Assembly (NCBI GenBank): GCA_017512495.1
Contig: JAFWGF010000004.1
Span: 1-43,228, forward strand
Direction: 5' to 3'
DNA length: 43,228 nucleotides
Origin: Bacilli bacterium
Lineage (GTDB): Bacteria; Bacillota_I; Bacilli_A; RF39; UBA660
The number at the start of each line of letters is the position of its first letter. Position 1 is the first letter of the stretch. This document shows, piece after piece, positions 1,390 to 35,714 of this stretch. The notes beneath the pieces are model-generated. The model searched no databases and was not told the origin of the DNA. It worked only from the letters and a program-made list of their open reading frames with translations. The translations under genes and the position numbers were made by a program.

Positions 1390-4300
1390 ATGGGTTTATA
1401 TAATTTAGTTAATTCTATTGTGACCTCACAAAGTGAAGAAGATGCAAAAGAATTATTAATGGGAAGTAATATATTATTATTGAATAATAAAGAATACTAT
1501 AATGCAATAATATCAAATTTCATTCAAAAAAAAGAGACAATAATAAAAAAAGAAAATGGTAAAATTGTATTTGATTTGAATAATACAACTGATATTTGGA
1601 ATATAATATTTATAAGTGAATATATAAAAGAGAATGACATTTTATATAAAACATATAATAATCTTTTACTAGAAATAGTTAATATTGAAGGTCAATTATT
1701 GGTAATAAAAAACAAACATAAAACCGCTAAATCAAAAGAAGAACATGCAGCTATAAATACAGAATATCAAAATCTAAATAATGTTTTATCTGCTAAAAAG
1801 AATCAAAGAGACAGTATGAGTGGTGTGATAGAAACATTCTATAGAACCGATTGGATAGAACTTGTTAACACAAATAGTAAAATTGAACAAATGCAGGAAA
1901 TAAACGTTCTAAAGCAAGCTATAAATATAATTCATAAAGTAAGAAATAGCCTTGAACATGATAATATAGATATTGATAAGATAATTGAATTAGATAATGA
2001 TAACTTTAAAATATCCATTCCAATTGAATATTTAGACGGCTTTAATAAAGGAAAAATAATAGCTAATGATGAAGATAGAGTTATAGTAGAAAGAACAAAT
2101 CTAATAGCTCTACCACTCCTAAGTGAATTAAATTGTAATATAGATTCATTACAAAGTATATTTTATAATATAGAGCCAGATTTTTTATCACTACTTCTTG
2201 AAAAATATAATTACAATATAAAAGATATATATAAATTATCAAGAGGTATTTTAAAAAATAGTCAGAAAACAAAGGAATTACTTAATAAAGGAATAGATAT
2301 TGAACTTATTGAAAAAATTCCATATATGGTGGCTGATTCATTTACAAGTACACAAGAAATTATTGATATGATAAATTATTTGACCAAAGAGAATATGCTG
2401 GATAAAATAGGAAAAATCACTCCATATGCTTTTAAAAACGCTGATATTTTAGACATATATTTAAAAAACGGAATCGATTTAGATATTATAAATAGTTTTG
2501 AATGGGGAGCATTTGTTAATCCTTTATATGCAATTTCATTACTTGAAAAAGTTAATATATTAAAAGAAAATGGCATTAATTTTTCAAAATTAATAAAAAG
2601 ATTTTCAAACAAGAGGGATGTTAATAGAATACCCTTTGACTATGCAAAAGAAATAATTAGATTTACAAATAGATTAAAGGAAAATAATATACCCATTGAG
2701 GTATTATATGATGAAAATTTACTAAAAGAGGAATTGTTTGAAAATAGTGAAAACTTTAAAAAAATGTATATGGAAGATGACGTTTTTATTCCATTAATTA
2801 GACCTGTTTTTTGGTTTGCAATTTCCACTGATGGAAAAAGTTTTGATCCAAACAATTGGATAGTAGATGAGTTAACTAAAAATGGAATTAAACATAATGA
2901 AATAGGTATTTATGGTCAAAATTTTGAAAAACTTAAAACTGTATTAATCAATAATAATCTATATCCAATGAGTGAAGATAATAATAATACTTATATAGCA
3001 CTAGAATTATTACGAGTAATGGAATACTTAGATAAAGAGGGTACATTTTATGAAAACGTTTCAATCTTTGATAATATAAGTTATTTAGTTAAAAATGGAG
3101 TAAATATTGAAATAATAGATTCAATGTCAATCGATGCAATAGTAAATGCTAAACAAACATTGTTTTTTATACAACAAGGAATTCGTTACGATGAAATAGC
3201 AAAAATTCCAGCATCTGGTTATAGGTATCCAAAAGAAACCATAACTTTCATTAAATTTTTAAAAGAAAATGATTTATCTTTAGAAATAGTAAATGATGAT
3301 TTGTTTCTGTATCCTTTGAATTCAATTAATTTATTAAAATCAATTCCAAAAGATAAAATGCATATTGTTAGAAGTCTATCAGAATTGTCAATTTCTAATA
3401 TTGATGAAACAATAGAAATAATTAATACACTTACAGAGTATAATATAAATTTTGATAATATATCTTTGAATTTTATTGAAGGAGCAGAATCGTCAATCTC
3501 TTTAATTAAATGGTTAGAAGAAAAAAAATATAATATAAGAGTTCTAGAAAAACTTCCAGCATGTGCTTTCTTTAGGTTTAATGAAATGGATCAATTGCAA
3601 AATATATTAAAATATTTTGAACAATCCTGGAAGAAATATGAAAATTTACCTGATAATGGAAAAAGTTATCTAGAACAAACAGAGGAAGTAATAGAAGTTT
3701 TATTTAATAATGGATATACAGTTGATAAAGAAATCCCTACAAAAATATTTAGTGTTCCTAATGTTAAAGATCAAAATATTGAGTATTTATTAAAGTTAGT
3801 TAATTATGAATATAAAAAATTAGATGAGTTTCCAGATGAATTTTACACATGTAATTATGAAATATTAGAACACATGTGTAAAAATTATAATTACAATTTA
3901 TGTAAAAGTATTTTTGGGCTAGATAATCCAAAATTAATAGCAACATTAATATATGGAAATTCTGTATTTAGTCAATATCAAAAACAAAATCAAGACGACT
4001 TATTAATTGACATAGATCCAATAACAATAATTCATGCTGGATTTAATACAAGCATGATGTATAAGAATAGTATAAATGTTAGTGACTGGAATCAAGAAAC
4101 ATATCTTGCAAGATTTATAAATGATGAGAACCAGCAACCTCGTGATAATATTGAAATGAAAAGGTACATATTAGATAAGTTTAGAAATGCATTTGCTCAC
4201 TTTAGATTTAAACCTGTTATAGACAATAATGGTGAAATAGTAACTGATAAAATTCATATTTATGATAAATATGATGAAAGCAATGATACAAATTTTGATA

Positions 4301-4416
4301 TTATTTTAGATATAAAAGACTTTGTTGAAATAACTCGACAAGTAGAAAAAGGTTTACTTCAGAAAAAAGACGAAATGTTCGATATTAATGAAGAAAACAG
4401 ATTTAAAAAAAGATAA
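1390..4416 (+). CDS. Large unrecognised protein: HEPN-like domain, helical-repeat solenoid, second HEPN-like domain
   Basis: I do not recognise a named family for this 1008-residue soluble protein. Two RX4H motifs typical of HEPN domains are visible: R185-NSLE-H190 (context HKVRNSLEHDN) and R932-NAFA-H937 (context LDKFRNAFAHFRF). Each is followed by a short strand-rich stretch ending in a helix (ISIPIEYLDGF; IILDIKDFVEITRQVEKGL), which suggests the same fold twice. Residues 90-140 are probably coiled coil. Roughly residues 260-800 hold about ten repeats spaced 34-38 residues apart with a core like L-x-(K/E)-N-G-I-x-(I/L)-x-x-(I/L) (LNKGIDIELIEKI, LKNGIDLDIINSF, LVKNGVNIEIIDSM), consistent with an alpha-solenoid. 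HEPN proteins of this motif are often RNases in toxin-antitoxin or phage defence; that function is inferred, not shown. No signal peptide or membrane segment. Confidence 0.55.
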   Translation: MGLYNLVNSIVTSQSEEDAKELLMGSNILLLNNKEYYNAIISNFIQKKETIIKKENGKIVFDLNNTTDIWNIIFISEYIKENDILYKTYNNLLLEIVNIEGQLLVIKNKHKTAKSKEEHAAINTEYQNLNNVLSAKKNQRDSMSGVIETFYRTDWIELVNTNSKIEQMQEINVLKQAINIIHKVRNSLEHDNIDIDKIIELDNDNFKISIPIEYLDGFNKGKIIANDEDRVIVERTNLIALPLLSELNCNIDSLQSIFYNIEPDFLSLLLEKYNYNIKDIYKLSRGILKNSQKTKELLNKGIDIELIEKIPYMVADSFTSTQEIIDMINYLTKENMLDKIGKITPYAFKNADILDIYLKNGIDLDIINSFEWGAFVNPLYAISLLEKVNILKENGINFSKLIKRFSNKRDVNRIPFDYAKEIIRFTNRLKENNIPIEVLYDENLLKEELFENSENFKKMYMEDDVFIPLIRPVFWFAISTDGKSFDPNNWIVDELTKNGIKHNEIGIYGQNFEKLKTVLINNNLYPMSEDNNNTYIALELLRVMEYLDKEGTFYENVSIFDNISYLVKNGVNIEIIDSMSIDAIVNAKQTLFFIQQGIRYDEIAKIPASGYRYPKETITFIKFLKENDLSLEIVNDDLFLYPLNSINLLKSIPKDKMHIVRSLSELSISNIDETIEIINTLTEYNINFDNISLNFIEGAESSISLIKWLEEKKYNIRVLEKLPACAFFRFNEMDQLQNILKYFEQSWKKYENLPDNGKSYLEQTEEVIEVLFNNGYTVDKEIPTKIFSVPNVKDQNIEYLLKLVNYEYKKLDEFPDEFYTCNYEILEHMCKNYNYNLCKSIFGLDNPKLIATLIYGNSVFSQYQKQNQDDLLIDIDPITIIHAGFNTSMMYKNSINVSDWNQETYLARFINDENQQPRDNIEMKRYILDKFRNAFAHFRFKPVIDNNGEIVTDKIHIYDKYDESNDTNFDIILDIKDFVEITRQVEKGLLQKKDEMFDINEENRFKKR

Positions 4417-5113: not shown

Positions 5114-6112
5114 ATGACGTATATTGATTTTGATGGTGTTATATTAGATACTGAAGATTTAATGTTTGAAGAATGGAGAAAGATTCCTAATAGACATTCA
5201 TTATCGGAAACTGAGAAAATAGAATATCTAAAGCATGTTGATTGGAATTATGTTTTAAAAAATGCTGAACCTATTAATAATTCTATTAAATATTTAAAAC
5301 TTATGGATTCAAAAAATACTTTTATACTTACGAAAGTTCATTCATTAGAAGAAGGAACAGCAAAAATAAATTGGGTTAAAGAACAAAATATTAGACTTAG
5401 AGTAATATTAGTACCATATTACTTAAGAAAATGTGATGTTGTAGACCCTAGTGATAGTGTTTTAATTGATGATTGTTTAAATACTCTACGTGAATGGGAA
5501 GAGAATAATGGTAAAGTGATTTTTTTCGATAAAGATAATGATAATTGTGATAGTTGGCATGAGCAAAATGTAAATAACTATAAATGTATAGATAATTTAG
5601 CTGAATTCGTAAATATGAATAATCAAGTTAAACTTGATCAATATAGAGATATTTGGATGTCAGAAAAATTTGATGATGTTATAGGATTTTATCCAAGAGA
5701 GTTTTATCCATTAGATAATTTTTCATCATTTAAAGTGGAAGTAGATGGATATTTATATGCTTCTTTAGAAGAAGCATTTCAAAGTTCATTATTTTTACCT
5801 GATTATCCTGGAATAGCAGAACGAATTAAGAATAGTCATTCGGCACATGAAGCTCAAAAGATTATGTTTGCTAATATTGATAAAGTAAAATATTCAAATG
5901 AAGAACAAGTTACTATAATGGAAAAGTTACTTAGGTTAAAAATAGAACAAAATCCATACGTTTTGAAAAAATTACTAGAAACTAAGAATTACTTAATAGT
6001 AGAGGATTCTCCAAAAGATAATTTTTGGGGATGGGGAATAAATAGAGATGGTCAAAATCAATTAGGAAAGTTATGGATGAAATTAAGAGAAGAATTAAGA
6101 AATAAAGACTAG
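5114..6112 (+). CDS. HAD-like phosphatase fused to a NADAR domain
   Basis: Residues 1-175 are a HAD-superfamily domain. The catalytic DxD motif is IDFDGVILDTE near the N-terminus, and LIDDCLNTLREWEENNGKVIFF carries the distal acidic pair, resembling 5'(3')-deoxyribonucleotidase-type HADs. Residues 195-330 are a NADAR (YbiA-like) domain: VDGYLYASLEEAFQ, SHSAHEAQKIMF, then the signature EDSPKDNFWGWG and GQNQLGKLWMKLR. NADAR proteins hydrolyse ADP-ribose linkages, including ADP-ribose on guanine in DNA, and some act as antitoxins to DarT-type toxins. The fusion suggests two-step removal or recycling of an ADP-ribosylated or phosphorylated nucleotide; that is inference. Its TAG stop sits inside the terminator stem. 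Confidence 0.85.
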   Translation: MTYIDFDGVILDTEDLMFEEWRKIPNRHSLSETEKIEYLKHVDWNYVLKNAEPINNSIKYLKLMDSKNTFILTKVHSLEEGTAKINWVKEQNIRLRVILVPYYLRKCDVVDPSDSVLIDDCLNTLREWEENNGKVIFFDKDNDNCDSWHEQNVNNYKCIDNLAEFVNMNNQVKLDQYRDIWMSEKFDDVIGFYPREFYPLDNFSSFKVEVDGYLYASLEEAFQSSLFLPDYPGIAERIKNSHSAHEAQKIMFANIDKVKYSNEEQVTIMEKLLRLKIEQNPYVLKKLLETKNYLIVEDSPKDNFWGWGINRDGQNQLGKLWMKLREELRNKD

Positions 6113-6160: not shown

Positions 6161-6487
6161 GTGAGTTTTACAATTAATATTTATTATAAAGGAAAAAATG
6201 GTTCTGCTAGGGAATTTGCTAATGAAATGATTTCTTCTGGAATAGTAGAAGAAATAAGAAGTAAAAGTGGTAATCTAAGATATGAATATTTTGAACCAAT
6301 GGATGATAAAGAGACAATATTACTTATTGATAGTTGGGAGAATCAAGATGCACTTGATAAACATCATAAATCAGATATTATGAATAAAATAATGGAATTA
6401 AGAAATAAATATGATTTACATATGAAAGTAGAAAAATATGTTTTGGATGATAGTAATAAACAAGATGAAAAATATATAAGAAAGTAG
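6161..6487 (+). CDS. Antibiotic-biosynthesis monooxygenase (ABM) domain protein, putative quinol monooxygenase
   Basis: A 108-residue single-domain protein with the dimeric alpha-beta barrel ABM pattern: a first strand followed by a helix (SAREFANEMISSGIVEEIRSK), then YEYFEPMDDKETILLIDSW and the conserved NQDALDKHHKSD helix. Relatives include YgiN-like quinol monooxygenases and heme-degrading enzymes. No heme-ligand pattern is clear, so the substrate is open. The start is GTG, with an imperfect Shine-Dalgarno (ggagagtgat). It leads a short run with the GNAT-YoaP gene 8 nt downstream. Confidence 0.8.
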   Translation: MSFTINIYYKGKNGSAREFANEMISSGIVEEIRSKSGNLRYEYFEPMDDKETILLIDSWENQDALDKHHKSDIMNKIMELRNKYDLHMKVEKYVLDDSNKQDEKYIRK

Positions 6488-6495
6488 GAATAAGT

Positions 6496-7239
6496 ATGAA
6501 TGAGTATATTAATTTAGATGAAAAAAATATTGATGAAGAGCACATTTGCTGTGCAATTGGTGATCCTAAACATCAAGATGGCGTAGACAAAAAGAAAGAA
6601 TGGATCAAAAGTAAATTGAAAGATGGCCATGTATTTAGAAAGTTAAATGCAAGAGGTAAAATCTTCATTGAATATGAACCAATTGAAACAGCTTGGGCTC
6701 CTATTAATGGTAAAAACTATATGTATATTTATTGTTTATGGGTAGCAGGTAGTTTTAAAGGAAAAGGTATTGGTAAAGAATTATTAGAATATGCTATAGA
6801 AGATGCTAAAAAGAAAAAAATGAGTGGTATTTGTACAATAGTTACTCAAAAGAAAAAACCATTTATTGGTGATAAGAAATTTTTTGAACATTTTGGATTT
6901 AAAGTAGTAGATACTATTAATGACTATGAATTGATGGTATTACAATTTGATGATAAAGAAATACCTAAATTTAATGACAATGCTCGTAAGATGGAAATTG
7001 ATAGTCAAGACTTTACTATTTATTATTCTAATGAATGTCCTTATGTAGAATATGAAGTAAAAGAATTATCTGATTATGCTAAAGAAAAAGGTATTAAATT
7101 GAACTTTGTAAAGATAGATACACTGGAAAAAGCTAAAAATGCTCCATGTATAATTAATAACTGGGCTAACTTTTATAAAGGAAAATTTATATCAAATACA
7201 ATTCTTAATGCTAATGCATTTGCAAAATTATTAAAATAA
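6496..7239 (+). CDS. GNAT N-acetyltransferase with C-terminal YoaP domain
   Basis: This is the two-domain architecture seen in YoaP-like acetyltransferases. Residues 1-150 are a GNAT fold with the acetyl-CoA loop VAGSFKGKGIGKELLEYA and the terminal KKFFEHFGFKVVDT. Residues 165-247 are the YoaP domain, a thioredoxin-like fold with YYSNECPYVEYEVKELSDYA, FVKIDTLEKAKNAPCIINNW and FYKGKFISN. Only the first cysteine of a CxxC-like position is present (CPYV). The substrate is unknown. It lies 8 nt after the ABM gene and so is probably co-transcribed with it. Confidence 0.88.
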   Translation: MNEYINLDEKNIDEEHICCAIGDPKHQDGVDKKKEWIKSKLKDGHVFRKLNARGKIFIEYEPIETAWAPINGKNYMYIYCLWVAGSFKGKGIGKELLEYAIEDAKKKKMSGICTIVTQKKKPFIGDKKFFEHFGFKVVDTINDYELMVLQFDDKEIPKFNDNARKMEIDSQDFTIYYSNECPYVEYEVKELSDYAKEKGIKLNFVKIDTLEKAKNAPCIINNWANFYKGKFISNTILNANAFAKLLK

Positions 7240-7263
7240 TTATAATAATGATTAGGTGATATT

Positions 7264-7803
7264 ATGAAAACAACACTTAAATATTTTGTTCATGGAACTA
7301 CTTATGATAATGCTAGTAAAAAATGTTCTGGATGGAAACAAGTACAATTAACTGATTTAGGAAAAGAACAAGCAGCAAATTTAGGAAAGATTAATTCTGA
7401 TATTAAATTTGATGTTATTTTTACATCTGATTTAATAAGAGCAATTGATAGTGCTAATATAGCATTTCCCAATGTAGAAAAGATTCAAGATGAAAGACTT
7501 AGAGAATGCAATTATGGTGATTTGGATGGAATGGATAAAAACTTAATAGTATATGAAGATCACATTGATGAGCCTTTTCCAAATGGTGAATCATTAAAAG
7601 ATGTCGAACAAAGAATTAGAAGTTTTATTGATGACATAAAAAAAGAATATCAAGGAAAAACAATTGGAATAGTTGCTCATCGTGCACCACAATTAGCTTT
7701 TGAAGTAATCACTAAGAATATTAGTTGGGAAGAAGCAAATAAAAATGATTGGCGAAAAACTGGAGATTGGCAACCAGGATGGGAATATACAATAAAAATG
7801 TAA
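7264..7803 (+). CDS. Histidine phosphatase superfamily protein with VHG in place of RHG
   Basis: The phosphoglycerate-mutase-like fold is shown by FVHGTTYDN, the SGW...LTDLGKEQAANLG helix, FTSDLIRAIDSA, the acid motif DERLRECNYGDLDG and the second catalytic histidine in GIVAHRAPQLAFE. The nucleophile His is kept, but the arginine of the usual RHG motif is valine. That is recurrent in a small Bacillota subfamily, so the gene is probably not a degraded copy. The substrate, probably a small phosphometabolite, is not predictable. Its Shine-Dalgarno is taggtgat. A TATAAT at 7241-7246 could give it a separate short-leader transcript. Confidence 0.82.
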   Translation: MKTTLKYFVHGTTYDNASKKCSGWKQVQLTDLGKEQAANLGKINSDIKFDVIFTSDLIRAIDSANIAFPNVEKIQDERLRECNYGDLDGMDKNLIVYEDHIDEPFPNGESLKDVEQRIRSFIDDIKKEYQGKTIGIVAHRAPQLAFEVITKNISWEEANKNDWRKTGDWQPGWEYTIKM

Positions 7804-7815
7804 GATATGATTATA

Positions 7816-7842
7816 AAAACTCAGAGTAATCTGAGTTTTTTT
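7816..7842. terminator. Bidirectional terminator between convergent genes
   Basis: AAAACTCAG - agtaat - CTGAGTTTT with A- and T-tracts on both sides. It serves the phosphatase (+) and the kinase-like gene (-), whose stop codon begins at its edge. Confidence 0.88.
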
Positions 7843-8539
7843 ATTTAAAATATTTCTTTTGTAATACTTTTTCTGCATCATCAAGAGTAGTAATAGGTTG
7901 ATCTGTTAAGTTTTCAATACTTGATTTTAACCATCTAAGATAAGAACTAGGATTAGCCAATTTATCTAAATCTCCAACATACCCATATTGTTCAGCTATT
8001 TCTCTATATTTCATAATATCTTCCAGCAAAAAAGAGTAAATACGATTCATCACTTCATATAAATTGTCTTCCTTATAATTTCTACCCGACAAATATAAAT
8101 AAGGTAAAGTATCTATAATTTTAAAAGAAATTTCATCATAAATTATATTTCCACAATGGAAATCTTTTATTAAAATACCTTGACTAGAAATAGAATTCAA
8201 ACTATCTGTTACAACTTGTAATTGATCACTTAAGAGGTTAATTTTTTGATTGAGAGGTTTGCATTTAGATAGACTAGTACCATGAGCATATTCCATTATA
8301 ACAGCACGAACATAATTGCCTACATAAGCACAATTTTTAGCAAATATAAAAGAAGATGAATCTATATCTTTAAATTGTAATACATAATCAGGATAATAAT
8401 CTGAATATAATAGTTTAATTACAGAGTTATCATCTAACAAAAAGCAAGTTCCATCTTTACCATAACCTAATGATTTTACTTTATGCTTATCTATATATTG
8501 TTGTAAAGTATTTAAATTGTTAAAATGTAAATCTTTCAT
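7841..8539 (-). CDS. Small atypical protein-kinase-like protein
   Basis: A 232-residue soluble protein with a minimal kinase pattern: glycine loop LGYGKDGTCFLL, the lysine in SVIKLLY, hinge IMEYAHG, catalytic loop ILIKDFHCGNIIYD (the D and N of the HxDxxxxN motif kept, the first His replaced by K/I), and IIDT in place of DFG. This is the layout of aminoglycoside-phosphotransferase or RIO/ABC1-like kinases rather than Hanks kinases. The substrate could be a protein or a small molecule. It is one of only two minus-strand genes and has its own strong promoter. Confidence 0.75.
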   Translation of the reverse strand: MKDLHFNNLNTLQQYIDKHKVKSLGYGKDGTCFLLDDNSVIKLLYSDYYPDYVLQFKDIDSSSFIFAKNCAYVGNYVRAVIMEYAHGTSLSKCKPLNQKINLLSDQLQVVTDSLNSISSQGILIKDFHCGNIIYDEISFKIIDTLPYLYLSGRNYKEDNLYEVMNRIYSFLLEDIMKYREIAEQYGYVGDLDKLANPSSYLRWLKSSIENLTDQPITTLDDAEKVLQKKYFK

Positions 8540-8557
8540 ATATACCTCATTCCAGAT

Positions 8558-8586
8558 ATTATATGTTTATTTTTAACTTTTGTAAA
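8558..8586 (-). promoter_or_regulatory. Sigma-A promoter for the minus-strand kinase-like gene
   Basis: On the minus strand, TTTACA (8586-8581), a 17-bp spacer and TATAAT (8563-8558). The transcript start is near 8551, giving a leader of about 12 nt with Shine-Dalgarno gagg. Confidence 0.8.
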
Positions 8587-8617
8587 GAAAGTAAATGTTT
8601 TAAAAAGTAGTTGCTTT

Positions 8618-8626
8618 TGATATAAT
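8618..8626 (+). promoter_or_regulatory. Extended -10 promoter for the amylase
   Basis: TGATATAAT, then aaggagg at 8630-8636 and ATG at 8644. It is divergent from the kinase promoter within a 104-bp gap. Confidence 0.7.
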
Positions 8627-8643
8627 TATAAGGAGGTTAAAAT

Positions 8644-10488
8644 ATGTTAGATGATATACAATTTGATTTAGAAAAGATAGAAACAATTAATAATAATTCG
8701 ACTAAATACAGGGTAACAACCAAAATACCACTTTCCTTAGGTTGGGTTCAAAGAATGAACTTTATTGTAGAAGATAATGAAAGAAGAATTAATTTTAATA
8801 TGAATCATACTAAGAATACTGATCGATATGCTTATTTTGAAACAGAATTAGTATTAGATACTAGTGCTTTATATCATTATTATTTTTCTTTTGAAGCTAA
8901 TAATAAATTTATGTATTATAAGAAACATAATAATAGTAATTACAATCAAATTAATACTGAAGATATGTGGAAGTTAAGCGTTAATTTTGAAGTACCAGAC
9001 TGGGCTAAAGGAAAAATTATGTATCATATATTTGTAGATAGATTTAATCGTACCGAAATACCTAAAGATATGCCGCATCGTACTATTCATAAATCTTGGG
9101 ATGAAGATATTGTAGTTGGACCAAATGATGAAGGTATTTGGAATGCTGATTTTTATGGAGGTAATTTACAAGGAATTATAAATAAATTAGATTATATAAA
9201 ATCTTTAGGAGTTAGTATAATCTATTTAAGTCCAATTGTTTGGTCACAATCTAATCATCGTTATGATGCTGCTGACTATGAGAATGTTGATCCTTATTTA
9301 GGTACAAATAAAGATTTAAAAGAGCTCTGTGATAAGGCTCATGAATTAGATATGAAAATTGTTTTAGATGCTGTATTTAATCATACTGGTAATGACAGTA
9401 AATATTTTAATCAATATAGTCATTTTAATAATATAGGTGCTTATCAAAGTAGTGATTCTAAATACTATGACTTTTATCGTAAATATATTGTAAATAATCA
9501 AACATTCTTTGATTACTGGTGGGGTATGAAGAATTTACCAGTATGTGATGGTAATTCAAAAATTTGGCAAGACTATATTTACGGTGAAGGTGGCATAATT
9601 GATTTATGGTTTGATTTAGGCATCGATGGATTAAGATTAGATGTTGCGGATGAATTATCTGATGACTTTATTGAAGGTATAAGAAAAGCAGTTAAAAGAA
9701 ATAAAGATGATGGATTTATCTTAGGAGAAGTATGGAAGAATCCTATGCGTATGAATAGGGGATATATATCTTCCGGTAAAGGAATGGATACTGTAATGAA
9801 TTATACCTTAGTAGATGCTTTAATAAGATACATTAAATATCGTGATGTATATAAATTACATGATGCTTTAAAACAGTTAAAGATAGAATATCCTGATGAT
9901 ACTATTAATAGTTTGATGAATTTTACTTCTACTCATGATATAAGTAGAGCTATTAATATATTTGGAACTAGAGAATTTCAATACAATGAAGAATGGGCTT
10001 GGAATTTATCTAACAACAATATTTATTGGCAAAAAGATTATAAATTATCTAAAGAAGATTATGAATTAGGGAAGGATATCTATAAAGCTTATTTATATAC
10101 TTTAGCATATCTTCCCGGTATTTTATCAATCTTCTATGGAGATGAAGTAGGATTACAAGGTATGGGTAATTTAGCTAATAGAAGACCTTTTCCATGGAAT
10201 AATATAGATGAAGATTTATTGGAATTTGTTAGAGATATTGGAAAGATTAGAACTAGTGAAAAATATTTAGAAACAGCTGATTTTGATATTATAGATATAA
10301 ATGATAGATATTTTATGTTTACTCGTACTAATAAAGATGATCAAGTATTATTCACAATGAATAGATCTAGTAATAAAAGTAATATATTGATTCCTAGAAT
10401 GTATCGAGATTATAATATTATTCATAGTTATAAAGATACAAATAAAGAAGAAATAGATAGTCATGGAGTATTAGTATTAAAAAAATAA
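8644..10488 (+). CDS. Glycoside hydrolase family 13 alpha-amylase / neopullulanase-type enzyme
   Basis: A 614-residue protein without a signal peptide, hence probably cytoplasmic breakdown of maltodextrins. Residues 1-105 are a beta-rich N-terminal domain (CBM34-like), as in cyclomaltodextrinases and neopullulanases. The (beta/alpha)8 barrel starts at [12 protein letters not shown]13 regions are all visible: region I DAVFNH, region [12 protein letters not shown] with nucleophile D333, region III ILGEVW with acid/base E362, region IV FTSTHD with D432. A small C-terminal beta domain follows. It is preceded by a strong aaggagg Shine-Dalgarno. No transporter or maltose regulator is adjacent, and no clear terminator follows. 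Confidence 0.93.
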
Positions 10489-10507
10489 GAAAGTAGAAGT
10501 CTAGTTT

Positions 10508-10536
10508 TTGACTTGATTTGTTCTTATTGCTATAAT
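10508..10536 (+). promoter_or_regulatory. Sigma-A promoter for the 116-residue protein
   Basis: TTGACT, 17-bp spacer, TATAAT. Because the -10 lies inside any longer reading frame from the TTG at 10513, translation must start downstream, at the ATG at 10564. Confidence 0.8.
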
Positions 10537-10563
10537 AAATTTACAATGTTTGAGGAGAATATT

Positions 10564-10914
10564 ATGGAAGATTACTATAGTTTAAATTATATGCAAGTTA
10601 TGATGTATATGCATAAAATAGATGAAATAAGAAAAAGTGATCCATTTTTTGATGAATCAATTGTTGTAATATTTGAAAATTATGTAGTTGATAGAACTGC
10701 AGAAATTGCAATTGATAGTATTGGATTTAATCCATTAGTTGATAAAAAATATCGTATTACTAAGAGTCTGTTTGAATACTTAAACTGTTTAACTGGCGTA
10801 GATGTATTTGATAAAAAAGAAGTAAAAGAATTTAAAAGTATATATGAATCAGAAATAGAAGAAATATCAGATGAAAAGTTTATAAGAGTTAAAAAGAGAA
10901 ATTTAGCAAATTAA
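10564..10914 (+). CDS. Hypothetical acidic protein, 116 residues
   Basis: I do not recognise a family. The protein is soluble, rich in Asp, Glu, Ile and Tyr, with helix-prone segments (MQVMMYMHKIDEIRKS, SLFEYLNCLTGVDVFDKKEVKEF). ATG 10564 is chosen because it follows tgaggag at a normal distance and lies downstream of the promoter -10; upstream in-frame TTG and ATG codons have no ribosome site. It sits 17 nt ahead of the metallophosphoesterase and is probably co-transcribed with it. Confidence 0.7.
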   Translation: MEDYYSLNYMQVMMYMHKIDEIRKSDPFFDESIVVIFENYVVDRTAEIAIDSIGFNPLVDKKYRITKSLFEYLNCLTGVDVFDKKEVKEFKSIYESEIEEISDEKFIRVKKRNLAN

Positions 10915-10931
10915 AGAACAAGAGGTGTACT

Positions 10932-11858
10932 ATGAATAAACCATCAGATATGTTACAGGTTAGAGAAAGTATTATTTATAATAAGAATGTCGAAAATGAT
11001 ATTAAAATTGCTAGTGTTGGAGATATTCATATATCTAAATCAGTTGGAGAAAAAGATATTAATAATATTTATGAGTCTTTAGCTAGAGAAGAACCTGATT
11101 ATGTTTGTTTACTTGGAGATATAATTGATTCACCAAAAGAGTTAACTAAACGTTTTGATGATTTAGAGAAACTAATTAAGAGTTGTTCTTCTATTGCTCC
11201 TACAATGATAGTTTTAGGTGGACATGATTTTATTTATGATGTTCCTGATTTATCAGACGAATCTAATGTTTGGGGTAAACTTAATCAGTTATCAGAGGTA
11301 TACATTTTAAATGACGAAATATATAGTGATGATAAAATAATTATAGGTGGATATATTCAAAAAGAAGATGTCTATAATAATCGTTATGATAAACATACTG
11401 AAGATGCGATTGCATTTTATATAGATTTGATGCAGCATCCTGATCTTTATTCTGGATTAAGAGAAGATTTGCCTAAAGTATTTCTTACTCATTCGCCCGC
11501 AACAATTAATGATAATAGAATAAAAAGTCAATTAAGTGCGTATGACGTTATTATAACTGGCCACTATCATAATGGATGTGTTCCAGCAATGTTAGAGAAT
11601 ATCTATCCTAAGAATGCTGGTATTATTACACCAAAATTAAAGATGTTTCCTAAACAAGCTAGAGGAGTTGTTAGATTAGATACCGGAACTTATTTAATAT
11701 ATAGTGGTGGTTGGATTAAATTATCTGCTGGATCACCATTACTATTTCATCCACTTGATATGCTTTGTAATAGACAAATTGATGTTACTACATTAACTTC
11801 TAATGAAGAATATATGAATGAGAGTGTTAAAACTAAAAAATTAGTTCTTAAAAAATAG
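10932..11858 (+). CDS. Calcineurin-like metallophosphoesterase
   Basis: All five metal-binding blocks of the superfamily are recognisable in this 308-residue protein: VGDIHIS (GDxH), LLGDIID (GDxxD), LGGHDF in place of GNHD, LTHSP and ITGHYHNG (GHxH). The asparagine of GNH(D/E) is glycine, a notable change because it normally helps position the phosphate. There is no signal peptide and no membrane segment. The substrate is unknown; such proteins act on nucleotides, phosphoproteins or nucleic acid ends. The stop TAG overlaps the first bases of the terminator stem. Confidence 0.88.
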   Translation: MNKPSDMLQVRESIIYNKNVENDIKIASVGDIHISKSVGEKDINNIYESLAREEPDYVCLLGDIIDSPKELTKRFDDLEKLIKSCSSIAPTMIVLGGHDFIYDVPDLSDESNVWGKLNQLSEVYILNDEIYSDDKIIIGGYIQKEDVYNNRYDKHTEDAIAFYIDLMQHPDLYSGLREDLPKVFLTHSPATINDNRIKSQLSAYDVIITGHYHNGCVPAMLENIYPKNAGIITPKLKMFPKQARGVVRLDTGTYLIYSGGWIKLSAGSPLLFHPLDMLCNRQIDVTTLTSNEEYMNESVKTKKLVLKK

Positions 11859-11879
11859 ACTAGAACAATCTAGTCTTTT
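11857..11879 (+). terminator. Intrinsic terminator, CTAG family
   Basis: AGACTAGA - acaa - TCTAGTCT, 8 bp, then TTT. The stop codon TAG (11856-11858) overlaps its first two bases. Confidence 0.82.
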
Positions 11880-11880
11880 A

Positions 11881-11909
11881 TTGACAAATTATATGTTTTT
11901 TTGTAGAAT
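11881..11909 (+). promoter_or_regulatory. Sigma-A promoter directly after the terminator
   Basis: TTGACA, 17-bp spacer, TAGAAT. The -35 begins one base after the terminator. Confidence 0.8.
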
Positions 11910-11934
11910 ATTATGTGCTTTTTAGGGGGTATAT

Positions 11935-12534
11935 ATGAATAAATTATTTGATAATAGTCATTTTATCGCAATGCAATTTAACAAATCAAAAAATTTAAAT
12001 AGTCATTTATTTGGCTTTAAAAATTATAATATACCAAAACAAAAAAATGTTGTTCAGGTATTTCCTAATGATGATATAAGTACTTGGGATGAGGTCCTAA
12101 AATATATTGAATTTTTGAATAGTAAAAATGTATTTGAAAGTATATCTGTAGCTTGCCTTAGTGAAGAATTATTTTGTGATATTTTTGGATTTAGTGAACA
12201 AGAATATAAGGAATATATAGATTATGGTTCAAAAGAAATGAAATCTGCATGTGTTGAGGAAGACTTCCAATGGTTTGAATATACTGAACCATATGAACTT
12301 AAAATACGCTATAGAATTCCTAAAGAATTAGTGTTTGGTTCAATTGTACGTAACAAAAGTGGAGAATTAGGATTTATTGCTAATAAGAATTATATAGATA
12401 ATTTGAATGATGATGAAAAGAATGAATTTATTGAACTATATAGAGAATTAATATTAAATGAAGTGCGAAATGAAGATTTAGATGATAAATATGCTTTTCG
12501 TGATATTAAGAAATTTAAGGCTAGAGAAATCTAG
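11935..12534 (+). CDS. Hypothetical protein, 199 residues
   Basis: I do not recognise a family. It is soluble with mixed alpha/beta composition: an N-terminal stretch with NYNIPKQKNVVQVFPNDD, a central helical segment (WDEVLKYIEFLNS, FSEQEYKEYIDYGSKEM) and a charged C-terminus rich in Asp, Glu and Lys. It has its own promoter and a strong Shine-Dalgarno (aggggg). The last codons (AREI-stop) are written by the terminator hairpin itself, so the terminator has apparently trimmed or fixed the C-terminus. Confidence 0.7.
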   Translation: MNKLFDNSHFIAMQFNKSKNLNSHLFGFKNYNIPKQKNVVQVFPNDDISTWDEVLKYIEFLNSKNVFESISVACLSEELFCDIFGFSEQEYKEYIDYGSKEMKSACVEEDFQWFEYTEPYELKIRYRIPKELVFGSIVRNKSGELGFIANKNYIDNLNDDEKNEFIELYRELILNEVRNEDLDDKYAFRDIKKFKAREI

Positions 12535-12542
12535 TCTTTTTT
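12519..12542 (+). terminator. Intrinsic terminator, CTAG family, encoding the C-terminus of the preceding protein
   Basis: GGCTAGA - GAAA - TCTAGTC followed by six T. The stop TAG (12532-12534) is in the 3' arm. The stem-loop is identical to that at 21400-21417. Confidence 0.85.
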
Positions 12543-12552
12543 ATGTTATAAT
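12542..12552 (+). promoter_or_regulatory. Possible upstream promoter of the two-component operon
   Basis: TATGTTATAAT after the terminator T-run, in the same arrangement as other promoters here. If used, the leader to the regulator would be about 100 nt, unusually long for this window. Confidence 0.5.
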
Positions 12553-12606
12553 TAAAAAGAGATTTGATTATTAAAAAGAAATGATATTGTGTTATAAATA
12601 AAAAGT

Positions 12607-12628
12607 TTTAATATTCATTTAATATTCA
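12607..12628 (+). promoter_or_regulatory. Tandem 11-bp operator (putative response-regulator box)
   Basis: Two perfect head-to-tail copies of TTTAATATTCA. A tandem direct repeat with 11-bp period is the classic binding site of OmpR/PhoB-family regulators, and it lies 10 bp ahead of a -10-like TATATT (12639-12644), replacing the -35. A related pair lies at 14638-14659. The second unit also overlaps a small inverted repeat, ATTCATTT...AAATGAAT. Confidence 0.7.
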
Positions 12629-12659
12629 AATGAATAATTATATTTGAGGTGATAAAACT

Positions 12660-13349
12660 ATGCGAATATTGATTGTTGAAGATGAAGAATCACTTGCAGA
12701 ATTAGTCGCAAATAGATTAAAGAAAGAGAAATATACTGTTGATATTGCCAATGATGGAGAAGAAGGACTTTACAATGCATTAGAAGATTTATATGATCTT
12801 ATAATACTTGATATAATGCTTCCTAATATTAATGGTATTGATATATTAAAAGAAATTAAGAAGAATAATATAAAGTCTAAAGTAATAATGTTAACAGCTA
12901 AGTCTGAATTAGAAGATAAACTACTGGGATTTAGTGAAGGTGCTAATGATTATATTCCAAAACCATTTCATATTGATGAAGTAGTCGCAAGAGTTAATGC
13001 TCAATTAAGAATTGAAAAAATTAAGAATAACAATCTTGAATTTGGAGATTTGATTCTTGATTTAAAAACATCCGATATTATTAACAAGAATAATAATGAA
13101 AAGATAAATATTATTAATAAAGAATTTCAATTGTTAGAATATTTTATGAATAATCCTAATCAAGTATTATCTAAAGAAATGATATATGATAAAGTATGGG
13201 GATTAGAAAATGATTCTATTTCTAATAATTTAGAAGCTTATTTATCATTCATTAGAAAAAAATTAAAACTTATTAATTCAAATGTTCAGATAAAAGCTTT
13301 AAGAAATTTAGGTTATAAGATGGAGTATAAAGATGAAAGAACTAAATAG
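12660..13349 (+). CDS. OmpR/PhoB-family response regulator
   Basis: The receiver domain (1-115) has acidic pocket E7-D8-E9, phosphoacceptor D51 in LIILDIMLP, T79 and K101 in YIPKPF. The winged-helix DNA-binding domain (125-229) has the usual FQLLEYFMNNPNQVLSKEMI and ending RNLGYKME. Length 229 is normal. Shine-Dalgarno gaggtgat precedes the ATG. The gene overlaps the histidine kinase by 17 nt, so the two are translationally coupled. The tandem 11-bp repeat upstream suggests that it regulates itself. Confidence 0.95.
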   Translation: MRILIVEDEESLAELVANRLKKEKYTVDIANDGEEGLYNALEDLYDLIILDIMLPNINGIDILKEIKKNNIKSKVIMLTAKSELEDKLLGFSEGANDYIPKPFHIDEVVARVNAQLRIEKIKNNNLEFGDLILDLKTSDIINKNNNEKINIINKEFQLLEYFMNNPNQVLSKEMIYDKVWGLENDSISNNLEAYLSFIRKKLKLINSNVQIKALRNLGYKMEYKDERTK

Positions 13350-14547
13350 AAAAGTATTTAATACAATATTCATAATCTTATCAGTATTTATATTTATTAT
13401 TGTTTTTATATATAATGTAGAAATATATAGAAGAGAATATAGTGCTGTACAGCGAAATTTAAGCTTCATGGAAGAAAGAATTACTAAACCAAATTATAGA
13501 AATCCAATTATCGATGATGAACAAGATGATAGAGGCTTTGAAAATATGATGATTATGGATTATGAAGTATATACAGTTATATTAAGTGATGGAGAAATTG
13601 AAAGAATTATTAGTCATAGTAGTAATACCAGTGATTTTGATGTTCAAAGTATTGCAGAGAAAATTATTACTAAAAAACAAGGAATAAAGATTGGGAGTTT
13701 ATATAATAACAAGTATTCTTACAATTATTATTTAGATACAATAATTATTATCAATACCAAGAATATTAATGATAGATTAATACTTATATTAATTAAGTCA
13801 CTTATAATCTTATTAATAGTTGAAATTATGGTTTGTTATATTTCTAAAATGTTAACTGAGAGAATTACTAAGCCAGCTCAAGAATCGTTTGAGAAACAAA
13901 AAGATTTTATCGCAGATGCTTCACATGAACTTAAAACACCTCTCGCAGTAATAATGGCATCTTCAGATGAATTAAAAAGTGATAAAAAGAATTCTAAATA
14001 TGTTGACAATATCAAGTATGAATCTGAAAGAATGAATAATTTAATTAAGAGTTTATTAGATTTATCTAAATTAGAAAATGGCATATCTATTGCTAATTAT
14101 AAAGAAGAAAATATCTCAAAGATTATTGAGAGAATATGTTTAACCTTTGAGGCAATTGCTTTTGAAAATAATGTTACTATTGATACTAATATTGAAAAAG
14201 ATGTAATACTTAAATGTAGTAAAGAAGAAATAGAAAGATTAATATCAATAATATTAGATAATGCTATTAAACATAGTTATAAAGATTCTATTATTAAAGT
14301 TAATCTAAACAAGGATAAGAATAATATAAATTTAGAAATAACAAACAGTGGAGATCCAATAAAAATTGGTGATGAAGAAAAAATATTTGAAAGATTTTAT
14401 CGAGCAGATAAATCTAGAAAAAGAGATTCTAACAGATATGGTTTAGGACTTGCTATTGCAAAGAATATAGTTACTAATCATAATGGTACAATTAAAGCTT
14501 TTTCTAAAGATGGATTGACGACATTTAAAATAAATATAAAAAAATAA
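13333..14547 (+). CDS. Sensor histidine kinase, partner of the response regulator
   Basis: A 404-residue membrane kinase with TM1 at about 8-28, an extracytoplasmic loop of about 120 residues, TM2 at about 149-170, dimerisation/phosphoacceptor helix with H198 in DASHELKTPL, N box ILDNAIKHS, F box IFERFYRADKS and G2 box RYGLGLAIA. The sensor loop is rich in charged residues (IDDEQDDRGFENMM) and has no recognised sensor fold. A full HAMP domain is not evident between TM2 and the H box. The signal is unknown; the adjacent surface-protein operon suggests an envelope or surface cue. Confidence 0.95.
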   Translation: MKELNRKVFNTIFIILSVFIFIIVFIYNVEIYRREYSAVQRNLSFMEERITKPNYRNPIIDDEQDDRGFENMMIMDYEVYTVILSDGEIERIISHSSNTSDFDVQSIAEKIITKKQGIKIGSLYNNKYSYNYYLDTIIIINTKNINDRLILILIKSLIILLIVEIMVCYISKMLTERITKPAQESFEKQKDFIADASHELKTPLAVIMASSDELKSDKKNSKYVDNIKYESERMNNLIKSLLDLSKLENGISIANYKEENISKIIERICLTFEAIAFENNVTIDTNIEKDVILKCSKEEIERLISIILDNAIKHSYKDSIIKVNLNKDKNNINLEITNSGDPIKIGDEEKIFERFYRADKSRKRDSNRYGLGLAIAKNIVTNHNGTIKAFSKDGLTTFKINIKK

Positions 14548-27885: not shown

Positions 27886-27906
27886 TGTTTGGAGGGATTA
27901 GGTTTT

Positions 27907-29703
27907 ATGGAAAAAGCACAATTAACAAAAGTGATAAATGATTTAAAGAAAGATAGGTTTAAAAGTATAACAAAAGATAAAATATCTGAACTTGATTTAC
28001 TATATATTGCTAATAAGTTGAAAGATGATGAGTATGATGTAAGTAGATTAATCAATATTATTCTTTCAAATACAATTAATGAGAATTGTGACTGGAATAT
28101 TGGTAGTTTACTTCAACATTTTGATTATAACGATATTATTAATGCTCTACAAAATACACCATTAAATAAAAGGGGATATTTATATGATTCAATTGGTTTT
28201 TGTTGGGCATTAGGAGAATGTCCATATAAGAATGAACAAGTAATAGAATTCTTATATGAAGTTATTAATAATGGAAGAAACTCTGAATCATGGTGGAAAG
28301 CAGCATTTGCTTTAGAAAAAATTACTGGTAAAAATGCTATTAATAATTTAAAAAGAAGTTTGAAAAATTATGGAACAGTTTCATTAGAAGAAAGCTTAGA
28401 TAATTTATCTGATAAAAAAAATGTAATTAATGTATTATTAAATGCTAATAGTAATGTGATTAAAGAAGATATATATCCTAAATTAAAAGAAAGATTTAAT
28501 GATAGTATAGATGAAAAAGAATTAATTAATATTGTTTGGTTATTAGGAAGATTAAGATTATATGATGAAAGTATGCTAAATAAATCTTTAGAAATATTAG
28601 AAACAACTGATAATTATGAAACTAAGTATTATATTTTACAAGCTATGATAGATGATCCTAAGCAAATATATATAAAATATTTTAATGAATTTTTAGATTC
28701 AGAAGATAATTTGATTAAAAAGATGGCTATTGTTGGATTAGCTGAATTAGGAATAGGTGTTAAAGTAGAACAATTAGAATCTATGTTACAAAGAGAAACT
28801 AATCCAAGCGTAATAGCAGCTTTATCACAAGCCATTTATATGACTAAAAGTAAACATTTTATTGATGAAAGAAATTATATTAGAAAATATATGGTTAACG
28901 AAAATGGATTGATAGGTGATGATTCAGATAAATGGTATGCTGATGCATCGATTTATAATTTGTTTTCTGAAGCAGAAGATCCAGAAAATGTTTGCTTTAA
29001 TATGATATTTAATCGAATATTAGAAGAAAAGATAAAAATAGAAAATCCAGTTGATTTAGCAACAGGAACTGGTAGAGCAGCTAAATATATCTTAAATAAT
29101 ATTTCGTATGATGGATGTTTATATGCAATAGATTATAGCCAACAGATGTTAGATTATTTTGATAGAACTATTAATAGACAAAAATATTATGTCAAAGATA
29201 TTGATTTAGTACATTCTAAAATACAAGATTTTAAATTACCAGATAATAAAAAATCATCACTTGTAATTAGTTCGTTTGGATTCCCTAGTAAGATTTCTGA
29301 TAAAGAAAGATGTAGATTAGAATTAGAAAGTGTCTTTAATTTATTATCAGATGATGGTGTATTTGTTACACTAGGTTGGGATGAAACATTTAATGATGAT
29401 TTAAATAATGTATGGTATAAATATATACCAGATAATATAAAAGCAGCTAATTATGAAGAGTGGCGAAGAGCAAGAGAAGCTAGTATAACAAGTGCTAGAA
29501 ATTGTGATTTAACTTGGTATAAAAAGAACATAAGAGTACCATTAATTTATGATACATTAGAAGAAACAATTAATGTTATGGGACACTTATTTGGTAGAGA
29601 TGCTGCTCTAGATATATTAAAGAGTAAGAAGAACATGTGGTGGATGTCTTTAGGAATTACATGGGATAATAAAGAATCTTTAGCAAAGGTATTAAAAAAA
29701 TAA
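27907..29703 (+). CDS. HEAT-repeat protein fused to a class I SAM-dependent methyltransferase
   Basis: 598 residues. The first 330 are helical with HEAT-like repeats (WWKAAFALEKITGKNAINNL, NIVWLLGRLRLYDESML, KKMAIVGLAELGIGVKVEQL, VIAALSQAIYMT). The C-terminal half is a Rossmann methyltransferase: motif I VDLATGTGRAAKYI near D383, YAIDYSQQML (acidic end of strand 2), SSLVISSFGFPS (motif IV position), LLSDDGVFVTLGW. The HEAT part may recruit a macromolecular substrate. ATG 27907 is used; the TTG at 27889 lies before the Shine-Dalgarno. The CYTH gene follows after 9 nt. Substrate unknown. Confidence 0.82.
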   Translation: MEKAQLTKVINDLKKDRFKSITKDKISELDLLYIANKLKDDEYDVSRLINIILSNTINENCDWNIGSLLQHFDYNDIINALQNTPLNKRGYLYDSIGFCWALGECPYKNEQVIEFLYEVINNGRNSESWWKAAFALEKITGKNAINNLKRSLKNYGTVSLEESLDNLSDKKNVINVLLNANSNVIKEDIYPKLKERFNDSIDEKELINIVWLLGRLRLYDESMLNKSLEILETTDNYETKYYILQAMIDDPKQIYIKYFNEFLDSEDNLIKKMAIVGLAELGIGVKVEQLESMLQRETNPSVIAALSQAIYMTKSKHFIDERNYIRKYMVNENGLIGDDSDKWYADASIYNLFSEAEDPENVCFNMIFNRILEEKIKIENPVDLATGTGRAAKYILNNISYDGCLYAIDYSQQMLDYFDRTINRQKYYVKDIDLVHSKIQDFKLPDNKKSSLVISSFGFPSKISDKERCRLELESVFNLLSDDGVFVTLGWDETFNDDLNNVWYKYIPDNIKAANYEEWRRAREASITSARNCDLTWYKKNIRVPLIYDTLEETINVMGHLFGRDAALDILKSKKNMWWMSLGITWDNKESLAKVLKK

Positions 29704-33674: not shown

Positions 33675-35714
33675 ATGTACGTAAATGATTATGAGAGAAG
33701 AGGTTTTCCATTAAGAGACTTTATACTAAAACTAATATTAGTAATAATATTTGTCTTTTTATTGTGTTGGTTACTACCTAAGTTCATGAGACCTTCAGTA
33801 GTTAACTATAACTCAAAAGATGGAAAAGCATGCACTACTAGTACTTGTGATACTACTGGAATCAGTGCACTAACATCACAAATCTTTGCAGACAACTTAG
33901 AAAGAATGAAAGATGCTGCTATTTCATATTATACTGATGAAAGATTACCAAAAAATGTTGGTGATTCAGATACAATGACATTAAGTGATATGATTGGTAA
34001 ACATTTAATAGTTGCTTTAATTGATAAAAACAACAAAGCATGTGATGTTGAAAAAAGTTATGTAAAAATAACTAAAGTAGATGACGAATATATCTTAAAA
34101 GTTAACTTAAAAGATAGCGAGAAAGAAGATTATATTTTAGTTCATCTAGGTTGCTACACATATTGTGAAGGTGCATTATGTCAAAAGCAATTAACTAACG
34201 TAGCTGTAAAAGGATCTAAGGTAACAGGATATGTACCAATCAAAGGTTATGTTGATAATGGTGTTTATTATCCACCAAAGAGTGTAACACCTGTTATTAA
34301 AATAAAAGTTAGATGTGAATACAGAAATGGTAAATATTATGATAAGTCTGGAAAGGTTGTTTCTAAAGATGAATTTGAGAGACAATGTATCACAAAACCA
34401 GAAAAGAAATATTATTGTGTTAAACATGATGGTAAATATTATGATGATAAAGGTAATATAGTTTCTCGTAAAGAATATAAGAAGAAATGTTCTGAACCTG
34501 AAAATAAACATTACTGTGTTAAGTACAATGGTAAGTACTATGATGATAAGGGCAAAATAGTTTCTTATAAAGAATATAAGAAAGCATGTTTCCCTGAAGA
34601 AAAACATTATTGTGTATACTACAATGGTAAGTATTATGATAGTGATGGTAAGGTAACAGATAAAGAAACATTTGAAAGAGAATGTACTGTACCAGAAGAA
34701 AAACATTATTGTGTTAAACATGATGGTAAATATTATGATGATAAAGGAAATGTAGTTTCTTATGAAGCTTACAAGAAAGCTTGTGGTCAAGAAGAACAAC
34801 ACTATTGTGGTAAATATGATGGTAAATACTATGATGATAAAGGAAAAGTAGTTTCTTATAAAGAATATAAGAAAGCATGTTTCCCAGAAGTAGAGTATTT
34901 ATATGAATATAAGAAAACTACAGCTGCAGAATTCTCTGAATGGACAAATTGGAGTGCATGGAATAAAACTAACTGTGCTACTTCAGAAATTAATTGTAGT
35001 AATTCAGATGTTAATTGTTTAAGAAAATTACAAATCTATAAACAAAAAGAAAAAATTGGTGAGTATGATAGAACATATGCAAGAGAAAGATCAGTTCTAA
35101 GACAAACTGGTTCATATACTCAAAAATCATGTTCAAATTACAACTATGTAGAAATTAATAAAACAACATATGTTACTAAAACAACAACTACATATACTGC
35201 AACTGATACAATTACATCAGTTACACAACACTCAACTGGTGGTTGGGTATACAATGGTAGAGCAAGTTATAGTAATCCACCTTCAGATACTGCATCTAAG
35301 CATTATAAATTTGTAGGTGCTGATTATAGTAACTGTAGTGATGCTTGTCAAACATTACCTAACTATTATTATGATTCATATACATATACTGGTGGTTTAA
35401 GTAGTGTATCATCTACAACAACTCCAGGAAATGTTACAAGTTCTACATCTAGCACAACTACATCAACTACAACAACAACATCAGAAGCTAGCTGTGGTGA
35501 ATATGTATATAAGACAATCCCAATCTATGGTTATATTACAGTAACAGATAAAGCAACAAGAAGAGAACCATTATACGGAACAGTTTGTTACCAAAGTACA
35601 AAAACTAGAGATTTAATAAGTGGAGAAGTAACTAGATATAAATGGAGTACTGATAACGATATGACATTAATAAATAATGGATGGGTTAAAACAGGAAACA
35701 AGAAACAAAAGTAG
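33675..35714 (+). CDS. Large membrane-anchored extracellular protein with six Cys-bearing KYYDDKG repeats
   Basis: 679 residues. A short cytoplasmic N-terminus, TM at about 15-35, then a 160-residue domain (NLERMKDAAISYYTDERLP, TLSDMIGKHLIVALI, cysteines C158, C162). Residues 214-402 hold six tandem repeats of about 31-33 residues with the core C-x-x-(Y/H)-(N/D)-GKYYD-x-x-GK-V(S/T)-x-(K/E)-x-(Y/F)-x-x-x-C, two cysteines each. The C-terminal third is Tyr/Thr/Ser-rich with a poly-Thr linker and further cysteines. I recognise no named family. It looks like a disulfide-bonded surface stalk. It forms an operon with the next gene (12-nt spacer). Confidence 0.7.
   Translation: MYVNDYERRGFPLRDFILKLILVIIFVFLLCWLLPKFMRPSVVNYNSKDGKACTTSTCDTTGISALTSQIFADNLERMKDAAISYYTDERLPKNVGDSDTMTLSDMIGKHLIVALIDKNNKACDVEKSYVKITKVDDEYILKVNLKDSEKEDYILVHLGCYTYCEGALCQKQLTNVAVKGSKVTGYVPIKGYVDNGVYYPPKSVTPVIKIKVRCEYRNGKYYDKSGKVVSKDEFERQCITKPEKKYYCVKHDGKYYDDKGNIVSRKEYKKKCSEPENKHYCVKYNGKYYDDKGKIVSYKEYKKACFPEEKHYCVYYNGKYYDSDGKVTDKETFERECTVPEEKHYCVKHDGKYYDDKGNVVSYEAYKKACGQEEQHYCGKYDGKYYDDKGKVVSYKEYKKACFPEVEYLYEYKKTTAAEFSEWTNWSAWNKTNCATSEINCSNSDVNCLRKLQIYKQKEKIGEYDRTYARERSVLRQTGSYTQKSCSNYNYVEINKTTYVTKTTTTYTATDTITSVTQHSTGGWVYNGRASYSNPPSDTASKHYKFVGADYSNCSDACQTLPNYYYDSYTYTGGLSSVSSTTTPGNVTSSTSSTTTSTTTTTSEASCGEYVYKTIPIYGYITVTDKATRREPLYGTVCYQSTKTRDLISGEVTRYKWSTDNDMTLINNGWVKTGNKKQK
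34314..34880 (+). repeat. Six tandem peptide repeats within the surface protein
   Basis: Units of about 93-99 bp coding for GKYYDDKG-type repeats, each opening and closing with a cysteine. Units 2, 3, 5 and 6 are closest to each other in both peptide and DNA, which suggests recent duplication or gene conversion. Confidence 0.8.

Follow-up and report, generated by a model that had tools for sequence, protein, structure and literature searches.

P0001, a protein of 1008 amino acids encoded in the genome of a Bacilli bacterium, carries two RNxxxH motifs at opposite ends of an alpha-solenoid spine. The best explanation of its features as a whole is a self-contained twin-HEPN RNase with intramolecular pairing, which would be gated by the solenoid and activated by a trigger; we assign this reading a probability of about 45%. 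Within it, the HEPN fold of the N-terminal domain, the intramolecular pairing, the RNase activity, the sensing by the solenoid and the role in defence are parts that we infer.

The gene and its neighbours

The stretch of DNA analysed (the window) is the whole contig (C41, 43,228 bases) of a metagenome-assembled genome of 1.37 Mb, and its GC content is ~22-31%. The original prediction had described an open reading frame of 1008 residues at 1390-4416 (+); this frame indeed begins with ATG and runs without an internal stop. Compared with the 76% identical homolog from genome G168, the gene has a dN/dS of 0.18 (NG86). The gene is real and under purifying selection. A promoter-like site with a TG before its -10 element lies just 5' of the start codon (consensus promoter matches are many in the AT-rich region around the gene), and an intrinsic-terminator-like hairpin with a T run lies 3' of the gene. 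The terminator-like sites number two, one per strand of the same hairpin, versus 0.6 in shuffled sequences. Because the promoter-like site stands directly before the gene and the hairpin after it, P0001 is probably transcribed alone, i.e., the gene looks monocistronic with promoter and terminator candidates of its own.

Coordinates of the features discussed (window positions unless another contig or locus is given)
Feature	Position	Strand	Basis
Twin-HEPN solenoid gene (P0001), 1008 aa	1390..4416	+	open reading frame, homologs, dN/dS
Promoter-like site, TG before -10, just 5' of start codon	1332..1361	+	consensus match only
N-terminal HEPN-like domain (residues ~66-246)	1585..2127	+	conservation, predicted secondary structure
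Motif 1, R185-N-S-L-E-H190 (RNxxxH)	1942..1959	+	R, N, H invariant in six homologs
Alpha-solenoid spine (residues ~261-790)	2170..3759	+	periodicity, repeat model, predicted paired helices
C-terminal HEPN domain (residues ~847-996)	3928..4377	+	PF18736 match, conservation
Motif 2, R932-N-A-F-A-H937 (RNxxxH), then near-invariant F/Y-R-F/I	4183..4200	+	R, N, H invariant
Intrinsic-terminator-like hairpin with T run, 3' of P0001 gene	4528..4545	+	
623-aa protein	L045:6856-8727; contig C13 ~11855-13726	-	found by PF18736 search of genome

In the window, a DUF1848 gene is located upstream of the P0001 gene, and a short WYL regulator, a HAD-NADAR fusion and ordinary-looking genes are located downstream. 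The fusion (5114-6112, +) joins a HAD-like domain to a NADAR domain and lies two genes downstream of P0001. Three other proteins are encoded elsewhere in the window, all on the forward strand: a protein of 604 aa with HEAT-like repeats fused to a methyltransferase domain (27889-29703); a protein of 679 aa with an N-terminal membrane segment, no Pfam match and several ~33-residue repeats of the type YYCVKHDGKYYDDKGNVVSYEAYKKAC with about two Cys each (33675-35714); and a protein of 801 aa with one membrane segment, a charged coiled coil and a tail of APKTE repeats, again with no Pfam match (35727-38132).

Two invariant motifs

The motifs R185-H190 and R932-H937, on which the original prediction was built, are both present, lie ~740 residues apart and are the sole RX4-6H motifs of P0001. 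The prediction would have failed if their Arg and His residues varied among homologs; in fact, all six homologous proteins have the same R, N and H in both motifs. In the six-way alignment (P0001 numbering), three of 26 Arg residues (R185, R932, R939) and three of 10 His residues (H182, H190, H937) are invariant; by a rough hypergeometric estimate that takes residues as exchangeable, the four motif Arg and His residues would all be among them with a probability of ~6e-4. The Asn directly after the motif Arg (N186 and N933) is invariant as well. HEPN domains whose motif is intact characteristically have a polar residue at this place, mostly N, D or H (PMC3710099), and both P0001 motifs combine Rx4-6H with a polar residue after the Arg.

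The HEPN motif lies at the end of helix 3 and is followed by a loop (PMC3710099). In P0001, the last residues of the predicted helices 169-189 and 920-936 fall within the motifs (with low confidence in the N-terminal domain). The similar ending that had been proposed after each motif was recovered: each motif closes a predicted helix, and strands and then another helix come after it. Furthermore, E77, E81 and D83 are invariant in the N-terminal domain, with a spacing unlike the Ex3[KR] that is typical of the conserved acidic residue in HEPN helix 2 and without a clear C-terminal counterpart.

Conservation is concentrated at the two ends, with invariant columns making up 17% of residues 1-260 and 18% of residues 791-1008 versus 2.5% in the middle of the six-way alignment. 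Against the 76% identical homolog, dN/dS (NG86) is 0.26 in the middle, and 0.12 and 0.10 at the N- and C-terminal ends, respectively; therefore, the gene is under selection and its spine is changing fastest.

Proposed HEPN character of the two ends

A HEPN domain had been proposed for both ends of P0001. For the C-terminal end the proposal stood, with a match to PF18736 (pEK499_p136 HEPN) at window positions 4063-4338 that scored 30.5 bits against the curated cut-off of 26.6 bits; for the N-terminal end no family match was obtained. PF18736 also matched the homolog from G295 (L007/L010; 27.3 bits) and the family consensus (27.4 bits). The match to P0001 itself is marginal, as the whole-protein hmmscan did not list PF18736. 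The C-terminal end is the only one modelled with moderate confidence (pLDDT ~56-83), with a predicted helix at 920-936, strands at 940-944, 950-959 and 969-974, and a helix at 975-996. From these sequence matches, the C-terminal domain can be assigned to HEPN with fair confidence.

The N-terminal consensus matched neither PF18736 nor any other Pfam family, and none was located in this domain of the members. Here, helices are predicted at 66-81, 84-111, 116-152 and 169-189, strands at 198-203 and 206-211 and a helix at 227-246, in a model of low confidence except for residues ~90-140; the domain holds a length-variable coiled-coil insert (residues ~85-152). Aligning the N- and C-terminal profiles with hhalign placed motif on motif through the next strand (score 28.8; E 0.0024 for a single comparison; probability 12%). 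The highest scores of 154 unrelated pieces of 100-150 aa were 19.8 against the N-terminal and 22.4 against the C-terminal profile, a loose background because these pieces are single sequences and not profiles. AlphaFold, run with five sequences, gave a mean pLDDT of 49.7 for the full length and 51.2 for the N-terminal domain. Foldseek searches with these low-confidence models (mean pLDDT ~50), which bear on the four-helix bundle expected of HEPN domains, returned nothing below E = 0.001, and PDB sequence searches gave chance-level matches only. Three features suggest that the N-terminal domain is HEPN-like: its invariant RNxxxH, which closes a predicted helix; the helix-strand-strand-helix ending that it has in common with the C-terminal domain; and the weak profile match between the two.

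The repeat spine

About ten repeats of 34-38 residues had been proposed between the two ends. This was not supported: autocorrelation of the P0001 solenoid peaks at lags of 10 and 27 (z <= 3), with no period of 34-38 residues. Autocorrelation of P0001 and of its 76% identical relative from G168 gave weak signals only. Among the relatives, a clear period of 24 residues was found in three homologs (z = 17.8, 7.0 and 4.9) and a period of 27 in a fourth (z = 9.8). The 24-residue unit of the relatives reads AFxxPxxTIxLYxxGIDIxxLP, and a model of this repeat detected 18-19 units or fragments in two relatives and six partial copies in the P0001 spine. The regular 24-27-residue repeat of the relatives is worn down in P0001. 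Residues 292-406 are predicted to form short paired helices (pLDDT mostly 58-86), consistent with an alpha-solenoid. The spine is the fastest-evolving and most length-variable part of the protein (425 to 633 aa among homologs), and searches detected no such repeat spine elsewhere.

Distribution of the homologs

The homologous set comprises six proteins, including P0001, from five genomes; the others are 33-76% identical to P0001 and 924-1140 aa long. A search of 386 genomes of the family yielded the homologs from G168 (1006 aa, 76% identity to P0001) and G295 (L007; 926 aa, 36%), and profile searches added tandem paralogs in G459 (L011; 1076 and 924 aa) and a homolog in G873 (1140 aa). The nearest homologs come from assemblies of uncultured Bacilli or Bacillales, one of them from goat omasum. 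The gene is present in 3 of 39 species of the genus (one genome each), in 3 of the 386 genomes of the family sample and in 2 of 385 sampled genomes of the order. Whole homologs outside the family were not found in the class and phylum samples (all taxon samples were partial and the collections are not exhaustive), nor were homologs found in viral contigs, phages or plasmids. The gene is rare, and its occurrence looks like that of a patchily retained single gene.

Several matches were rejected. The G181 match in the family search is a different repeat protein (L004:1153-2733, +), mTERF-like in look, with repeat units like IEKIIELLSKYNMVSLLEQCPYILA. The C-domain profile also matched other members of the family weakly (E 4e-4 to 4e-3), over ~36-91 positions, and these were treated as chance; one of these weak matches falls in a frame with a stop. 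The class-level match in G598 (E 3e-4) covers solenoid positions only and was treated as similarity of repeat type.

Genomic surroundings

The genes of the five genomes occupy four different chromosomal places, and one genome has a tandem pair. The one shared place is that between fmt and rlmN, which flank the gene or genes in both G295 and L011, and neighbour sharing is limited to these two genomes. In L011 the tandem paralogs (6333-12389, +) have repeat periods of 27 and 24, and G295 has a single copy at this place. The G168 gene adjoins genes for a PEP-utilising enzyme and an HD-domain protein, and the G873 gene comes after an ftsW/rodA-like gene. The flanking DNA of the P0001 and G168 genes, which encode 76% identical proteins, has only short AT-rich matches in common.

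At none of the five loci were nucleotidyltransferase, restriction, CRISPR or defence genes recognised next to the gene; the neighbours in the other four genomes were judged by eye. A partner gene of the MNT type is lacking next to the P0001 gene in the window, and none was recognised by eye in the other four loci. CRISPR-like repeats or arrays were found at none of the five loci, and Rfam gave no match beside the P0001 gene. The patchy presence, the varied places and the tandem duplication fit what is typical of accessory conflict genes. The fmt-rlmN place in two genomes looks resident rather than mobile, which we count against a defence reading.

A second twin-RNxxxH protein in the same genome

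A PF18736 search of the genome revealed a second protein with two RNxxxH motifs, 623 aa long, on contig C13. It contains RNAFAH at 128 and RNSITH at 482, with a coiled-coil-like stretch between them and no repeats, and its gene stands alone among core genes, next to a polC-like gene. In hmmscan, two stretches of the protein matched PF18736 with 21.6 bits, which is below the cut-off. Against the C-terminal profile of the P0001 family, each of its ends scored higher than any of the 154 background pieces, and its N-terminal end did so against the N-terminal profile as well. Homologs of it were not found in 13 relatives. Like P0001, it has two RNxxxH motifs and PF18736-like matches; unlike P0001, it lacks repeats, and BLAST aligned the two proteins in the motif regions only, with no detectable similarity beyond them. 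This second case suggests that chains with two RNxxxH motifs may have recurred in the lineage as a design.

Possible function and its alternatives

HEPN RNases rely on the Arg and His of their motif, work without metal and produce 2',3'-cyclic phosphate ends (PMC3710099). They typically homodimerise, and Cas13 pairs two domains within one chain on target recognition (PMC12165695). For P0001 we propose a stand-alone, single-gene RNase with one HEPN domain at each end of an alpha-solenoid. Its two RNxxxH half-sites would pair inside the molecule to form one composite RNase site, metal-independent and leaving 2',3'-cyclic phosphate ends. Intramolecular pairing is the simplest reading, since one chain carries both invariant motifs and no partner gene was recognised; on sequence grounds, RNase activity with such pairing appears probable. 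The solenoid would keep the half-sites apart or out of register until a trigger binds, most likely a phage protein, or an RNA or host component altered by phage, and the activated enzyme would cut cellular RNA (tRNA or mRNA), so that growth stops. By analogy with DSR2, the length-variable and fast-changing solenoid is best seen as the sensor. Given RNase activity with intramolecular pairing, a role in defence would be rather likely: it fits the patchy presence and the tandem duplication, and it fits less well the absence from mobile elements and the resident place in two genomes.

The same protein could act in housekeeping or stress, trimming or cutting a specific host RNA (tRNA, mRNA or ribosomal RNA) bound by the solenoid. 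Such a role would suit a chromosomal gene that occupies the fmt-rlmN place in two genomes, that turned up in no phage, plasmid or viral contig and that has no recognised defence neighbours. However, so few close relatives carry the gene (3/39 in the genus) that it is not a housekeeping gene there, and the presumed binding part evolves fastest and varies most in length, which would not be expected of a part that binds a conserved host RNA; we consider this explanation unlikely. Still less probable is that only the C-terminal HEPN domain is active, in a protein that works as a homodimer and whose N-terminal motif sits in a structural or non-catalytic domain. This would agree with the lack of a family match and the low hhalign probability for the N-terminal domain, and most HEPN RNases do act as homodimers (PMC12165695). 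Against it, the N-terminal R, N and H are as invariant as the C-terminal ones, and the helix-motif-strand-strand-helix pattern is common to both ends.

About equally improbable is an addiction or stress-response module in which a HEPN toxin is restrained either by a distinct antitoxin or by the toxin's own solenoid. HEPN domains are commonly the toxins of MNT-HEPN modules (PMC3710099), and the tandem paralogs of L011 could be a pair; yet the five loci show no conserved adjacent gene or recognised nucleotidyltransferase, and the P0001 gene has an apparent promoter and terminator of its own. A Cas13-like RNA-guided effector, with its guide encoded elsewhere or supplied by an unseen small RNA, is very improbable despite the resemblance to Cas13 in size and in having two RX4-6H motifs in one chain, and despite the proposal that Cas13 derives from defence HEPN proteins (PMC12165695). 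CRISPR-like repeats are absent from the five loci, an Rfam match is absent beside the P0001 gene, the flanks of the 76% identical homologs share nothing beyond short AT-rich matches, and the spine is a repeat solenoid.

Comparison with known systems

The HEPN superfamily is already known, and the C-terminal domain of P0001, by its sequence match, appears to fall in a known family. That no described family has the layout of P0001, as had been claimed, agrees with the absence of a full-length match among the Pfam, NCBIfam and PADLOC models; the PADLOC match to mad4 (E 0.024) and the matches to MauJ (E 0.086) and ZT_dimer (E 0.8) were below any cut-off and were rejected. The combination of two HEPN motifs with a solenoid of 24-residue repeats matched none of the models in these three collections over its full length.

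The closest family is pEK499_p136 (PF18736; Anantharaman et al. 2013, PMC3710099), which the C-terminal domain of P0001 matches and with which it shares an RNxxxH at a helix end. The PF18736 model is one domain of 152 positions, whereas P0001 has two HEPN-like motifs with a solenoid between them. In contrast to the genomic context of pEK499_p136 (PMC3710099), the P0001 loci have no recognised R-M, ART/macro or Pgl neighbours. Beyond Cas13, twelve uncharacterised clusters of proteins with an intramolecular HEPN pair have been described, two of which became Cas13an (PMC12165695); likened by description only, P0001 is of the same general kind as these clusters of Yoon et al. 2024 (PMC12165695).

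In the single-chain defence protein DSR2, binding of a phage tail-tube protein by the large alpha-solenoid turns on a fused enzyme (PMC11087589). The comparison is one of analogy, as the enzyme of DSR2 is a SIR2 NADase and not HEPN, and no homology to P0001 is claimed.

P0001 and Cas13, including Cas13an, both have two RX4-6H motifs per chain with expected intramolecular pairing, and P0001 lies within the 800-1400 aa of most Cas13 proteins. Measured against the two HEPN domains of Cas13, P0001 has two invariant motifs and one domain matched to a HEPN family. It differs from Cas13 in having no CRISPR array or seen guide RNA, in having a solenoid in place of the crRNA-binding lobe, and in the absence of detected sequence similarity. 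Only tentatively do we suggest a one-gene class of immune RNases in which unlike HEPN half-sites would be joined by trigger binding across an evolvable solenoid of 24-residue repeats. Equally speculative is that this class would be a protein-sensing, CRISPR-free counterpart of Cas13, with a repeat-less cousin, the 623-aa protein, in the same genome. The family bears on the origin of twin-HEPN effectors and offers a directly testable single-gene defence candidate. If the proposal is true, the family would have a sensor that changes by gain and loss of 24-residue repeats and would represent, beside Cas13, another route to a switchable RNase with intramolecular HEPN pairing.
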